NCBI RefSeq assembly: GCF_002775205.1
Contig: NC_036460.1
Span: forward strand, 22,586,751-22,650,750
Origin: Xiphophorus maculatus
Taxonomy: Eukaryota > Chordata > Actinopteri > Cyprinodontiformes > Poeciliidae
DNA length: 64,000 nt
Direction: 5' to 3'
The notes under the pieces were generated by a model. That model saw only the letters and a list, made by a program, of their open reading frames with translations, was not told the origin of the DNA and did not search any database. The translations under genes were made by a program, and so were the position numbers. Positions 38,421 through 44,657 of the stretch are shown here, in pieces (the first letter of the stretch is position 1; the number at the start of each line of letters is the position of its first letter).

Positions 38421-39491
38421 ACATCTTCTTACAAAAACAGATCTAATCAAAGCACGGTCTTTCACATGTAGAATTTGAATTGATTGTCTTTGAATTTGAT
38501 TGGATTGAACCGACTATGAGTGTAAATTGGATGGTTTTTTAAAAAAAATAACCTTTGCTTTGAATTTCAAAAGCAAATGGGGCCAAACACAAAAGCATGC
38601 CCCATTTCCAATTTATATTTGTAAAAAGCAAAATTTAAAACCATCAATCCTTTCAATAAAAATAGCTTAAGGTTTTGGGTTGTAACATATGAAAATGTGT
38701 AAAATGCTTCAGCAAATGGCGTTAAGGAAAAATGAGAAAAGGAGAGCGGGGAGTTTCTTTGAGTTCAGAATACTTTCTCACATTGTGCCATCAAATATTC
38801 CCGATGAAATCTAATGGAAAAGCACATTTTTGACCACATATAGTCAGCTTTCATAGGCGAGGTTGCATCAGGTGCACCCACCTGGAAAATATCACGCCAC
38901 GGACTCTATTCCTGGCCAGCTATTACACAGTAAAAACTGCTGGGTTGAAAATAACCCAATACGTAACCCAGCGCTGGGTCATATATGGACCGACCCAACG
39001 CTGGGTTGTTTTAACTCAACTGGGTTGGGTTGAGGGTTTGACCCAGCACATTGGGTCATAGCTGCAACCTAAAGCTTGGGTTAAATTGACCACTGCCCAA
39101 AGTTAAAATGACTCAATATTGGGTTGAAATTTATTACCCATTAAAAGGGTCATTTTACCACCATATTTTTATTTTTAATTTTTTTTTCCTTTTCTACTTT
39201 AAAATTCACTATAAAAATTTAACTAAAAACATTCAGATTAGCTCAAAATAACTTTTATTTGCAAATGTTATACATTCCAACATACATGAAATTTTTAATA
39301 CAGACATGTAAAAGTTACATATAAACAATTGATTAAATCTGCACCCTTTTTTAACTTTATTGGTGTACACAACGAAATATTTTCATCAAAAGAGTTTGAA
39401 GGAAATGTAAAAAAAATAGTAACATAGTAACAAAGAAGGTTTTTCAATCAGAACATTTAAAACTTATTTAAGGGTTATTGAAGAATTGCAT

Positions 39492-39797
39492 TTATTCTTC
39501 CATGGCCTCCAACTGTGCCCTCATTAATTTTATCGGGGGTGACTCGTTTCCTGGGATTTCATATATCACAGTTTGGAGAAAATCCCAAATCTGGATACAC
39601 GACTTCGGATAACTCACATCAAAAACAAAGAATGATTTGAAACAGCCATCAACGGCCCCCAAAAGAGATGGATATTCCAAAGCAGTTCCATTTATGACGA
39701 CAAATGCTTGGGAACAACAATACCTGTCCCCAAGCATGAGAACACGTGGATGCTCTGTTGCTGTACTTCCAAGATATTCCACCATATTTGTCCCAAT
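39492..39797 (-). CDS. SAMD3-like exon 10 and stop
   Basis: Starts IGTNMVEYLGSTATEHPRVL and ends LMRAQLEAMEE with TAA. This is the conserved C-terminal block of the family. Confidence 0.65.
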   Translation of the reverse strand: MGTNMVEYLGSTATEHPRVLMLGDRYCCSQAFVVINGTALEYPSLLGAVDGCFKSFFVFDVSYPKSCIQIWDFLQTVIYEIPGNESPPIKLMRAQLEAMEE

Positions 39798-42568
39798 CTG
39801 GTGTGTGGAAAAAGCAGAAAGGAAGCCATTAGTCATTTAAAGGTAAGGAGGAACATTCCCCACTAATACTTTTTGACTAATTCTTATATGATTTTTGTTT
39901 GATACATTATCAAAAGACCCTTGCATTTGAAGTTTACATATACTATACTATATAAAAAGACATATTTTTGGTCAACGCTGTCTCGTGTTATATGACATTA
40001 AAATTCTTATTTCACGTCAATTAGGACTTGGTAAATTCCAGATTAATGACAGGGAGAACAGTGAGGGAAAAAAAGCATATTTGTTTTAAACTTCTGGTTT
40101 CAACTACATTTAAACAGCAAAGAACTCATTCTGACATGAACTTACTGGCTGGACATCAATGAAGGCTTGCTGGACTTCAAGGTTGCTGGGTCTGACCACC
40201 TTTCGCCCAACTCTGTAGGGAACAGCAGGGAGGAGTTTTGGCAGCAGCTGCAGTGCCACGTCACCTTGTTTGTCTGTCAAAGCAAAACTCAGATTAAAAT
40301 GCTACACAATCAAAAAAGAGCCACAGGAGAAAAAAATTAGTTCAGAAAATGTTCCTTTTGAGCTTCAATACCTTGTGGAAGCAACTCAATCTCAGGCAGA
40401 AGACCGCTCTCCTCCTTCTTCCCCATGCGAATGACCTTTGATGAGAACAAGGTGTTCCAGTTCTCTGTCAGTTTTCCACAAGACTGTGGATATAAAACGG
40501 CAAAGTCCTGCAAAATCTAACAATCAGAAAAGACAAAAATACAAATCAAATGTAAAAGTGAAATGAACTATTACATTCAACCTTTCATGGATGCTACAAA
40601 TGTATGTTCTGGGTAGTTTGACATTTTGAGTTTGATTGTAATTGTACATTTTCACATGGTATTGCAGTTTATTGTTTAACATTTAACTGATCTCAATATG
40701 AGGTATAACCTCACCATCCCTGGTGTGTCCAACAAACGTGGGAACTCTGCAAAAATCTGCTGCATTGGGATTGTCCCACTTGAGCGGATCCATCCTGCGC
40801 GATATACTGCAGTTTCCCGCCTGTATTGGACAACCTGGTCTGCGGGCCAGAAGTTATTTTTTAGCCATTCTGTCATCTGGATGGCACGCTCAGCACTGAT
40901 GGTTGGTTCTGTGGGGAAAAAAATATTACAGGAATTAAAAGAAAAAAAAAGTGAGGTAATTCACAGCAATAAGAGCTTAGATTGCTGCTCAAAACAATAG
41001 GGCTTGGAAAAAGTCTATGTGCTAGTACCAGGCAAACTTGATCTTTTTGGTGGAGCTTCTGGGGCTGAAAGCATCTTCTTCCTTGGTTGATGCCTTTTCC
41101 TTACATTACGGAGACGCTCCTCCAGAAAGCCAGTTGCTGGCCTGTGTTGTCTTCCGCAGGTAAACCAGGCGTCCTGAACATTTTTAACAAAAGAAATATA
41201 AAAGTTAAATGTTAGCCTTTCTGTTTTAATGTCCAAATTTTTTATTAAACCTACAACTCAAAGCTCAAACACCATAGTTACAATGATATTTAATGCTAAC
41301 CATTGTGCAAGTTGTTGAAGTACTTGTGTGCTAGTTCTCTGAAGTGTGAAAACTTACATATCCTGTGCCATGGCTGTCTCTTAAACATGGAAACTGGTCC
41401 ACAATCGAAGATGCCAGAATTGCTTTAGTGTCTGAAGATGGGCTGGAAACAAAAAAAATTACACTCAGTAAGACAGGCAAGTAAAATATTTTATTTTAAT
41501 TAGTTATTGTAAGATTAAAACATAGAGCAGAAACCTTAAAACACAAACAATTTCCAAAAAATCCAGTTTTTATTAGCCCAACACATACTTTAAGACTTCT
41601 TACTGGAGAAATTTTACTTAGGTGAGCACTGCACAATGCCGTTAATGTTCTGACCAAGAGCAAAATGTTACAAAAACAACCTAATTGATCCAGTTTTTAC
41701 AAGAAATACTCACTTTTCTCCATATTGATCCATCAGGTGTGACACAAGTGTTCTGACCATGCACCGTCTTTCACGAATGGATATATGCTGATTTCCATCA
41801 AGACTGATAACCACAGGTCTACCTTCAGGGGAGGCACTGAGGATCTCACGGATGTTCTACAGATAAATAGTGAAAAATAAAATAGCTGTTATTTAGCTGC
41901 AGTTTAATATTCTTAGAAATTTAAGAAAAGATGAGATGTGTCATTTTTAATTTTAATTAGTAAGAATGGATGTCAATATGTTATGTAGGAAAGGTTGATT
42001 GTGCAGCTTAACTTACAAATGCTGCTCTTCCAACAGAAGAAACTCCACTCTCTAATTCAGCATGTGGTGTAGGATCAGCATCTTCAGTTGTTTTAGGGCT
42101 AGATGTCCAGTGTGCTCAAAGTGAGCACACTGGACATATCTTGAAGTTGAATATGTGTTATGAATTACTCTTAGGTGAGAAAAAAAAATCCTTATGTTAT
42201 GTCCTAAAGACATCCCACATTTAAAACACACATATCCCATTTTGTCTTGTCCTATGACTCAAAGCATACCTCAAGAAATTTTGCAAAATGACGTTGAAAT
42301 TTCAGACGAGGACCAAGGTGAGGAATCAGGGATGTCAGGCAGTTAGCATCCAAAAGAAAGAAGCTTTCTTCATCAATGTTTTCAGCTGAAATATATTAGA
42401 AATTACATATTAATATTTTCAATCCAAAGAATTCCTGCCAATGCATGCTTTTAAGTACACACACACACGCACACACACACACATGTATATACTTAACCTA
42501 CCTTCAAAAGCAGGGATTAGGTCAGAAAGTTTCCATTCAGTCAGCTTCTGTTTTACAAACTCATCCAT
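39492..42568 (-). CDS. SAMD3-like protein gene inside the CACTA-like element (9-10 exons)
   Basis: Nine exons join in frame, plus one doubtful cassette exon, giving about 440-475 residues. The first two exons code MDEFVKQKLTEWKLSDLIPAF then ENIDEESFFLLDANCL...LIPHLGPRLKF, a sterile alpha motif (SAM) fold of about 60 residues, normally a protein- or RNA-interaction module. The C-terminal exon has SLLGAVDGCFKSFFVFDVSYP then FLQTVIYEI, resembling the end of vertebrate SAMD3. I recall many SAMD3-like predicted genes in fish. No DDE/DDD transposase signature or zinc finger was seen. All introns are GT-AG and phases fit, except where exon 3 joins exon 2. Molecular function is not known. It could be a captured host gene or a gene proper to the element; family call moderately sure. 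Confidence 0.65.
40146..40273 (-). CDS. SAMD3-like exon 9
   Basis: Codes DKQGDVALQLLPKLLPAVPY then VVRPSNLEVQQAFIDVQP. Donor CCA|GTAAGT. Confidence 0.65.
40372..40516 (-). CDS. SAMD3-like exon 8
   Basis: Codes ILQDFAVLYPQSCGKLTENW then ESGLLPEIELLPQ. Donor CAAG|GTATTG. Confidence 0.65.
40715..40908 (-). CDS. SAMD3-like exon 7
   Basis: Codes EPTISAERAIQMTEWLKNNF through QQIFAEFPRLLDTPGM. Acceptor CCCCACAG, donor ATG|GTGAGG. Confidence 0.65.
41029..41173 (-). CDS. SAMD3-like exon 6
   Basis: Codes DAWFTCGRQHRPATGFLEER followed by a basic stretch (RNVRKRHQPRKK), a possible nuclear signal. Acceptor TGTTCAG, donor CCTG|GTACTA. Confidence 0.6.
41358..41442 (-). CDS. SAMD3-like exon 5
   Basis: Codes PSSDTKAILASSIVDQFPCL then DSHGTGY. 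Long pyrimidine tract before the acceptor; donor TAT|GTAAGT. Confidence 0.65.
41714..41856 (-). CDS. SAMD3-like exon 4
   Basis: Codes NIREILSASPEGRPVVISLD then MVRTLVSHLMDQYGE. Acceptor CTGTAG, donor AA|GTGAGT. Confidence 0.65.
42017..42114 (-). CDS. SAMD3-like exon 3 (cassette, start disrupted)
   Basis: Open frame TSSPKTTEDADPTPHAELES...GRAAF with donor TTT|GTAAGT, in phase with exon 4. The only usable acceptor (TTTGAG|CACAC) is off by one base relative to exon 2 and lies inside the hairpin 42103-42137, which may have destroyed the true start. Skipping this exon joins exons 2 and 4 in frame. Confidence 0.4.
42103..42137. repeat. Perfect hairpin at SAMD3-like exon 3
   Basis: 16-bp perfect arms (ATGTCCAGTGTGCTCA and its complement) with a 3-nt loop, overlapping the expected acceptor of exon 3. 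Confidence 0.9.
42270..42385 (-). CDS. SAMD3-like exon 2
   Basis: Rest of the SAM domain, with FFLLDANCLTSLIPHLGPRL. Acceptor ATTTCAG, donor GAG|GTATGC, ends in phase 0. Confidence 0.65.
42456..42483 (+). repeat. (AC)n microsatellite
   Basis: AC run with one CG interruption, in intron 1 of the SAMD3-like gene. Confidence 0.85.
42502..42568 (-). CDS. SAMD3-like exon 1 (start)
   Basis: ATG at 42568; codes the first SAM helix, MDEFVKQKLTEWKLSDLIP. Donor GAAG|GTAGGT. Confidence 0.65.
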
Positions 42569-43399
42569 CTTTCAGATCTTTCAGGGAAAAAAGTGATACA
42601 ATTTGAGTCATTTTTTTCCTATGTGGAAAATAACCTGTACAATGTGTGCAAAAATATTTTATTTAGGACAATCACCAAATATTTCACAGCAAATAAGAAA
42701 AAATAATAGGACATTGACTATATGTTTAGCAGCTAATAACCCTGAACAAATGTAAAACATCACTTTTTGGGACACCAGGAGAGATCACACTGTTCAGTCT
42801 TGTTTTCACCAGCTCTCCCCTCAGCGCAACCTGATACCTGACAACATGAAGCAGATCTGTGTAAACCCAAAAGTTAATCCAGCTGTTTTCACTAATAACT
42901 GTATGTTTTTAATTCCACCTTGGTGGCTAATAATGGCCAGAATAACATACGTGCGCATTATCTAATTTCTGCGTCATGATGATGTTGCTGCTTACATAAA
43001 ATCATATGGTAATGACAGATACATATAGCCGTCAGTTTGTGTTAAGCATATGCCATCGCAGAGTGTGCTGATCTGACAGAACACCGGTGGGGACGACTCC
43101 AAACATGTCGGAGCACTTTTAAATTAAGAGATATTTCAATAAATCGAGCAGATATTTTATTGTTACATAGTTAAATCTTCACTAGAAATCTGTAAAAGTT
43201 ACTTTTATTTGACAGAAAGCATATTATCCAACTTTAGCTTCCCCTCCTCTGCCATTGCTGGTGCATACTTTTTTTTTCTTCTCCACTGCCTCAATCGGTT
43301 TCACCCAGGTTAACCGTATAATAGCATAGCATAGTGTGTTCAGTAAGAAATAAAAGGCTTAATGAAAATGGCATTTAACAGTTATATTACTGATATATT

Positions 43400-43610
43400 A
43401 CTATGAATACCTGTATAGCCCGTATCGCTTCGGACACCGCTACTGCAAAGACTCCAGTCCCTACTTGTCGCTATAGATCCGTTATTAGCATTCTGGCTAA
43501 GCTACCACCCTTTGCGCGCGCTAGTGAACGAGGCCCGCGAAAACCAGGGGGGGGGGGGGGGGGCAAAGCGCTATCTCTCCCTCCCACACCCTCACCTTTT
43601 TTTTAAACCA
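43400..43610 (-). promoter_or_regulatory. Possible promoter/5' UTR of the SAMD3-like gene
   Basis: A local GC- and CpG-rich patch (GCGCGCGC near 43514) in AT-rich surroundings, upstream of the first coding exon and inside the element. It includes a 17-base G run at 43547-43563. Promoter role inferred from position only. Confidence 0.3.
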
Positions 43611-43887
43611 AATTGGATAAATTATCTTTGAATTAAATGAATTATTTCAAAAACATTACCCTATCAACGAAGATGATAGGTTAAATCAAATAATTAAATT
43701 AAAGTTACATAAATTTAATTTAAAAAATCTGTAGTATATGAAGAATACAATAACCCTATAAACTTTAAAAAATATTATGCCATGATATTGTAACTTACCA
43801 TGTTTTATTTGAATTGAGAAATCCAGTGTTGTCTGATCAGGTCACAGTCCAGTTGAAAATGGAGGTTTGTGAAGAGGGCAATGGAGT

Positions 43888-43938
43888 TTTACCCAATTGG
43901 TTGGGTCAAACTGTTTTTGACCCAACCAATTGGGTAAA
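43888..43938. repeat. Subterminal hairpin of the CACTA-like element
   Basis: Perfect 23-bp arms (43888-43910 and 43916-43938) built from the TTGGGT subterminal motif, with a 5-nt loop. Confidence 0.9.
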
Positions 43939-44467
43939 GTGTTGAGTCAACTGAACCTGAAACCTAACAGAATCAGTTAAGTGGAGTTCATTAAAACAAA
44001 AAAAAAAAAGTCAACCCAACCGCTGGGTCACTACTTTTGAACCAATATTGGGTCAAAGTAACCCAACATATGACCCAGCATCTCTTACCCAGAAGTTCGG
44101 TTATGAAAATAACCCAGCATTTTTTACTGTGTAGTAACCATTTACCCTATGAGTCATCGGGGTGGATGTTTTATCAGCTGCTAAATATAACCTCCACGTA
44201 TTGATGTGCTGCTACCAGAGACTGAGTTCTCGAGAAAACAAGAAAAATGACTTCATTTTAGGGAAATGGGTAAATAGACACGAAGATTTTATATTATACA
44301 TTTAAGCATCGTCTTTAGTTGTTCATGTTTTGACATGAGTTTTGTGTTATAAGTATCCAATCCTTTTAATTATTTCAGTTTGAATGAAGAAAAAAGTTGA
44401 AATCTTAATATATTTAGTTTTTTTTATTTATTAAAAAAGACATCTGATTTGCTAGTTCTAGCTAGTT

Positions 44468-44548: not shown

Positions 44549-44657
44549 ATGGAAGCCCGTTTCCGCCACTCTGTAAAAAAAAAAAAAAAAAAATTATCTC
44601 ATTATAATGAGATAATTTTTTTTTTTTTTTACAGAGTGGCGGAAACGGGCTTCCATA
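44549..44657. mobile_element. Palindromic fold-back MITE
   Basis: Nearly the whole element is one palindrome: ATGGAAGCCCGTTTCCGCCA, an A-run, then a TTATCTCATT/AATGAGATAA centre, a T-run and the inverse. Only the A- and T-run lengths differ (19 against 15). The direct repeat TCAATCT lies at 44542-44548 and 44658-44664, a probable 7-bp target duplication. Confidence 0.85.

Follow-up and report, generated by a model that had tools for sequence, protein, structure and literature searches.

The window, the whole 64,000-nucleotide stretch of Xiphophorus maculatus DNA analysed here, holds a transposon-like element in which a single gene was recognised, a spliced one of the SAMD3-like type. The question is whether such a gene travels as cargo or belongs to the mobility system itself. 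The best explanation, with a probability of roughly 0.7, is that the element is a recently mobile, non-autonomous member of a two-gene CACTA-like (CMC-type) lineage, in which a gene of the SAMD3-like type is the first gene.

Structure and mobility of the element

The ends of the element formed a 26-nt inverted pair, 92% complementary, running from CACAG to CTGTG and flanked by TA on both sides, as the original prediction had read them at 38926-44131. The following features were assigned, with positions counted in the window.

38926..44131, unstranded: complete CACTA-like non-autonomous DNA transposon of 5,206 bp; eight full-length copies have the same limits, all eight with 2-bp duplications
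38924..38925, unstranded: left target-site duplication (TA)
44132..44133, unstranded: right target-site duplication (TA)
38926..38946, plus strand: left terminal inverted repeat, CACAGTAAAAACTGCTGGGTT, one half of the inverted-repeat pair
44111..44131, minus strand: right terminal inverted repeat, the other half of the pair
38926..39155, plus strand: left subterminal region with 13 TGGGT/ACCCA motifs
43872..44131, minus strand: right subterminal region with 11 TGGGT/ACCCA motifs

The dense subterminal repeats that had been predicted were borne out by counting. The TGGGT/ACCCA motif occurred 24 times in the first 230 and last 260 bp, compared with 3.1 on average and at most 9 in 500 shuffles of the outer 490 bp.

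When the window's own genome (one genome, 704 Mb in 101 contigs) was searched, at least eight full-length copies were found, which were 98–100% identical and had exactly the limits of the window element. The search scored 40 of 96 candidates, and the copy counts are lower bounds; partial and internally deleted copies were also present. The divergence among the full-length copies was 0.08–0.91%. The copies had been expected to share the CACAG ends and TA flanks. All eight carried the CACAG..CTGTG ends, and each was bordered by a perfect 2-bp duplication, which was TA in five copies and AG, TG, and TT in the other three. A ninth, internally deleted copy (L028) had a 2-bp duplication of TA. The chance of such a match was about 0.07 per site. 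A 3-bp duplication failed in L001 and L003, whereas 2 bp fitted all eight copies.

The 16 flanks of 1 kb around the eight copies were unlike each other, apart from one 49-bp stretch common to different copies. Copy L007 was nested in an older relative of the element, and its joined flanks aligned without a gap across the junction to L011 (85%) and L020 (81%), both of which lack the insertion. The empty sites looked for were thus found in the same genome in paralogous form. These gap-free sites, the unlike flanks, and the 2-bp duplications indicate that the L007 insertion was recent and of the cut-and-paste type. The window element is a recently mobile cut-and-paste transposon.

A lone 262-bp left end (L030, C2:9972728-9972989) was 100% identical to the element and continued into unrelated sequence; it is read as a very recent copy that has been broken. 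A near-perfect hairpin at 44549-44655 (GGAAGCCCGTTTCCGCCACTCTGTAAAA and its inverted counterpart), some 420 bp beyond the element, looks like a small palindromic mobile element.

The gene inside the element

The gene was located on the minus strand (42568..39492), entirely within the element. It was composed of nine exons separated by eight introns, all with GT-AG borders, and its 442 codons were open with nothing mended.

42502..42568, minus strand: coding exon E1, with the start codon and the first half of the SAM-like domain
42270..42385, minus strand: coding exon E2, with the second half of the SAM-like domain
42017..42115, minus strand: doubtful exon E3, outside the gene model; an open stretch with a good donor and without an in-frame acceptor
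41714..41856, minus strand: coding exon E4
41358..41442, minus strand: coding exon E5
41029..41173, minus strand: coding exon E6
40715..40908, minus strand: coding exon E7
40372..40516, minus strand: coding exon E8
40146..40273, minus strand: coding exon E9
39492..39797, minus strand: last coding exon E10, with the stop codon; its C-terminal domain is common to the transposase-linked paralogs
43793..43798, minus strand: GTAAGT, the splice donor of a probable first exon, 5' untranslated, which would begin in the right terminal region
42052..42240, minus strand: 62-codon open frame in intron 2 (CxxC...HLRVIH), a possible but weak relic of a transposase zinc finger
42103..42137, unstranded: 35-bp palindrome with 16-nt arms and a 3-nt loop, the loop being flipped between copies

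A nearly intact gene of nine to ten exons had been predicted; nine exons in an unbroken frame, wholly inside the element, held up, and the tenth did not. This exon, E3 (about 42115-42017), was compared across all eight full-length copies, and no upstream AG gave an open frame in the window copy, while skipping it kept the frame.

All nine exons, their splice sites, and the open frame were intact in each of the eight full-length copies. Variable sites numbered 18 of 1,329 in coding sequence, 35 of 1,748 in introns, and 30 of 2,129 elsewhere. The variable codons of the burst copies comprised 12 nonsynonymous and 6 synonymous changes (p = 0.19), and no purifying selection was seen among them. The eight intact frames alone do not show selection, because the copies may simply be young.

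The name SAMD3-like comes from the original prediction and is presumptive for the window gene; SAMD3-like predictions are numerous in fish annotations. Support for a SAM domain was weak. When the window protein was compared with Pfam, SAM_1 was matched with an E-value of 0.075 and 13.8 bits, short of the cut-off of 23, and behind an equally weak match to RNase_P_p30 (E 0.056), also below the cut-off. The best match in the PDB was the SAM domain of atherin (E 0.036), followed by an entry named SAMD1 (E 0.52). No nuclease family was found above the cut-off in these Pfam and PDB searches.

The donor at 43793..43798 suggests that the gene may be transcribed from a promoter in the right terminal region. 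The same ATG/GTAAGT first-exon donor was kept in the printed sequence of the older right ends L024-L026. The loop of the intron-2 palindrome was opposite in orientation in L001 to that in L002-L006, and the outer arm was altered in L007 and L008, which points to the hairpin as a site of inversion or template switching.

Paralogs of the last exon in other CACAG elements

A protein search of the same genome gave 99 matches, nine of which were distant, and the rest were exons of the burst copies. Six of the loci with a last-exon paralog were read in part (L032, L033, L034, L037, L038, and L039); others, such as C5:32179711, lay outside this set. The distant paralogs were 31–45% identical to the last exon of the window gene. 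A CACAG end was present on the expected side at five of the six loci, and both ends with a duplication at two; the read of L039 stops short of the element end.

L032 was an element of 3,228 bp; it had CACAGTAAATTT ends, was flanked by an AA duplication, and carried AGTGTTA as its subterminal repeat. L033, together with L035, formed a 2,858-bp CACAG element with a TA duplication and GAGTAAA subterminal repeats. The enriched 7-mers of both elements were counted without a shuffle control. L034/L036 was truncated on its 5' side and had a right end in common with L033, followed by TATT in both and then by divergence. A CTGTG end was found on the expected side in L034/L036, in L037, and at C6 (L041).

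L037 was 99% identical to L038 over 420 bp and 99% identical to L041, the 3' side of the C6 locus, over 294 bp up to TTTTTTACTGTG with TAC following, after which the two diverged. Of the first gene it keeps the last exon, followed by some 55 bp from the start of an adjoining transposase-like frame, and then jumps to the end of that frame. Judged by this alignment, L037 is read as a deletion derivative of the C6 kind and may serve as a model for the origin of the window element. L033 likewise keeps a frame after E10, whose ending, ..VPYCFL, resembles the ..VPYCYL tail that remains in L037.

Matches to the last-exon domain at 53–55% identity also lay in a group of eight on C13 (7678763-8130884, about 450 kb) and four on C96; this cluster is possibly a duplicated or domesticated version.

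The adjoining transposase-like frame

At L038 (C6) and L039 (C4), a second frame followed the last exon on the same strand, with its ATG 14 and 17 bp, respectively, after the E10 stop codon. By eye, this frame begins with a C2H2-like zinc finger. The Pfam matches of the frame were all below the cut-off (zf-C2H2, E 0.07–0.3; other families, E 0.004–0.007), its core matched nothing in Pfam, and a fragment of it matched nothing in the PDB. An alignment of last exons (A1) had one match in the PDB (E 0.43), which was taken as chance.

In the C6 frame (L038 and L040), 535 codons were read, all of them open; the sequence read breaks off after L040 and resumes at L041, roughly 1 kb on. The C4 frame was open over the 295 codons read. 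The open-frame lengths listed by the search are unreliable (492–588 at E10, compared with a real length of 114 in all eight copies), and the listed values of 815 for C6 and 834 for C22 and C46, which come from the same column, were not relied on. According to the listing, the C12 and C4 frames look interrupted or shortened.

The C6 frame contains GDN, CxxC, HxxH, and DVMHD at 379, 400, 429, and 469, motifs which we take to be those of the CACTA-like transposase family. The EnSpm transposase motifs given in the cited part of PMC12730594 are C(2)C and H(3-4)H, compared with C(2)C and H(2)H in the C6 frame. On the basis of these motifs, that source, and its place inside a CACAG-ended unit, the second frame is read as a putative CACTA-like transposase.

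A genome search with the first 319 residues of the transposase-like frame gave at least 39 matches, and a search with the C6 last exon gave 44, of which 10 were copies of the window element. The two listings were matched by eye. Each of the top five transposase-like matches (C6, C4, C12, C22, and C46) had an upstream E10-type match in the same orientation, at a distance of 17–67 bp from match end to match end. Locus C3 added a sixth pair, the deletion derivative L037. A second gene would thus lie next to a transposase at five loci, provided that the frame is a transposase. Thirty-two of the 39 transposase-like matches were at loci without an E10-type match; there the partner gene is either too diverged to be seen or absent. 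The window gene was 31% identical to the C6 last exon over about 101 residues, and the relatedness was seen through the last exon alone.

Among the more distant transposase-like matches (E 1e-6), eight shared one score, seven of them listed at 906 open codons, and seven shared another, listed at 888; both lengths come from the unreliable column. These equal-score matches are possibly other young families.

An autonomous partner with the ends of the window element had also been predicted. A CACAG-type 3' end was read at one transposase-linked locus (C6, L041), so a partner of the predicted kind was found, though not one with the same TGGGT ends. When at least 59 copy-search matches were compared by eye with the at least 39 transposase-like matches, none of the latter lay at TGGGT ends, and the nearest was about 22 kb away.

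Within the window element itself, no transposase was recognised among nine selected frames compared with Pfam, and the C6 transposase-like fragment had a best match of E 0.5 in the 64-kb window and of E 6.8 within the element, in agreement with the earlier reading of the element as lacking one. The PF02992 search gave zero matches in the genome, but the controls were silent too. A search of viral contigs gave no relative. Large open frames near old left ends were considered as transposase candidates; 157 were listed, and the 10 read by eye were unrelated genes or retroelements. The open frame in intron 2 was rejected as proof of a lost transposase, since 16 and 13 of 1,000 shuffles were as similar to the zinc fingers of C6 and C4, respectively, as the frame itself; the similarity is a hint of a transposase relic.

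Older relatives of the element

Seventeen diverged loci with matching ends (L011-L027) were compared with the element. They matched its first 100–350 bp or its last 118–286 bp at 70–89% identity, and three of the old right ends matched the right end of the element. The eight old left-end loci were set against the leftmost 2 kb of the element: two (L011 and L020) aligned to the stretch of E10 and intron 9 at the matching place, with E-values of 1e-7 and 3e-10, and the other six matched in the terminal part only. An old fragment at C9 (L031), which has no recognisable ends, retains E9 together with part of intron 9 and the E10 side. The traces in L011 and L020, the old first-exon donors, and L031 together indicate, as far as these alignments reach, that at least some of the older family members already contained the gene.

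Origin and role of the gene

The original prediction offered two readings of the gene. Its spread as a transposon-borne gene was confirmed by the eight full-length copies, all with duplications and intact frames, and by the empty site. Its second reading, a part in the mobility system, is favoured over plain cargo.

Complete relatives would be bounded by CACAG ends and carry two genes in head-to-tail order: first one of the SAMD3-like type, then a large transposase-like frame that opens with a zinc-finger-like part. The linked frames would encode the active transposase. Loss of the transposase may have produced derivatives such as L037, L033, and the window element. With its first gene and ends present and no recognised transposase, the window element would need a transposase from elsewhere and would be moved by it in trans. 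The product of the first gene would assist mobility as an accessory factor, most likely by binding the subterminal repeats specific to each family. Such a role is consistent with the finding that each family pairs a distinct motif with a distinct version of the gene; against it, no binding domain was identified in the product of the first gene and no selection was seen.

Plain gene capture, by which a non-autonomous CACAG element picked up a host SAMD3-like gene once and has carried it as passive cargo, is quite unlikely. It would fit the lack of purifying selection within the burst and of a recognised transposase in the window element, and gene capture by plant CACTA elements is reported in the cited part of PMC1947982. 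However, the last-exon domain also occurred in further CACAG families, whose subterminal repeats are different, it lay directly upstream of transposase-like frames on the same strand at the five best loci, and two of the eight old, diverged left-end copies kept a trace of the gene in place. The gene looks like the element's own equipment rather than a hitch-hiking host gene, since relatives carry this gene type beside a transposase-like gene.

It is highly improbable that the SAMD3-like protein is itself the family's transposase, of an unrecognised kind. Its gene is the sole one recognised in all eight recently mobile copies, but the relatives have a separate large transposase-like frame adjoining this gene type, and no nuclease family reached the cut-off, RNase_P_p30 included. 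A fixed segmental duplication or an assembly repeat merely resembling a transposon can be dismissed in view of the eight different contigs, the unlike flanks, the exact limits, the 2-bp duplications, and the empty site.

A more specific form of the two-gene reading is tentative and on the whole somewhat unlikely. The SAMD3-like protein would be a targeting subunit, which binds the subterminal repeats of its family and recruits a transposase that CACAG families have in common; the gene-only elements would then be 'half-autonomous', and the SAMD3-like genes of fish, possibly even vertebrate SAMD3, would be transposon genes or their descendants.

Comparison with known CACTA and EnSpm elements

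CACTA elements end in CACNG and make target duplications of 2–3 bp, and the second protein of plant En/Spm binds the subterminal repeats. The window element and its relatives resemble plant CACTA/EnSpm elements (CMC group) in the CAC..GTG ends, the dense direct and inverted subterminal repeats, and the existence of transposase-less derivatives. They also resemble them in the two open reading frames of complete elements; on the plant side, the cited part of PMC8978399 describes one as a transposase and the other as of unknown function. In contrast, the second protein here is SAMD3-like in type, and the transposase-like frame, with its zinc-finger-like beginning, did not match TNP2 in Pfam. The target duplication was 2 bp in the eight copies, L028, L032, and L033, whereas 3 bp is given for CACTA in PMC8978399 and for EnSpm in PMC12730594, in the parts cited. 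The element was therefore named CACTA-like and not a canonical EnSpm.

The zebrafish EnSpm-N elements (EnSpm-N6_DR and others) are likewise non-autonomous fish DNA elements placed under EnSpm. EnSpm-N6_DR differs, by description only, in its length of 346 bp and in that the cited part of PMC3485254 describes no gene in it. The EnSpm and other elements that carry TET/JBP genes in fungi are similar in that a DNA transposon carries an additional gene of possible benefit to it. According to the cited part of PMC12730594, the additional genes are captured enzymes spread over many superfamilies, whereas here a single lineage has the gene type repeatedly next to its transposase-like frame. Among the publications listed in the literature searches, none linked SAMD3 or a SAM domain to EnSpm/CACTA by title and the start of the abstract; Repbase lay outside this survey, and the family may already be catalogued there.

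If the two-gene reading is true, animal CACTA-like elements have a SAMD3-like-type counterpart of the plant second protein, and families that keep this gene without the transposase are a natural separation of end recognition from cutting. Some predictions treated as ordinary genes may then need re-annotation as transposon genes. Samd3 appears as a candidate trait gene in the cited part of a carp study (PMC8945855).
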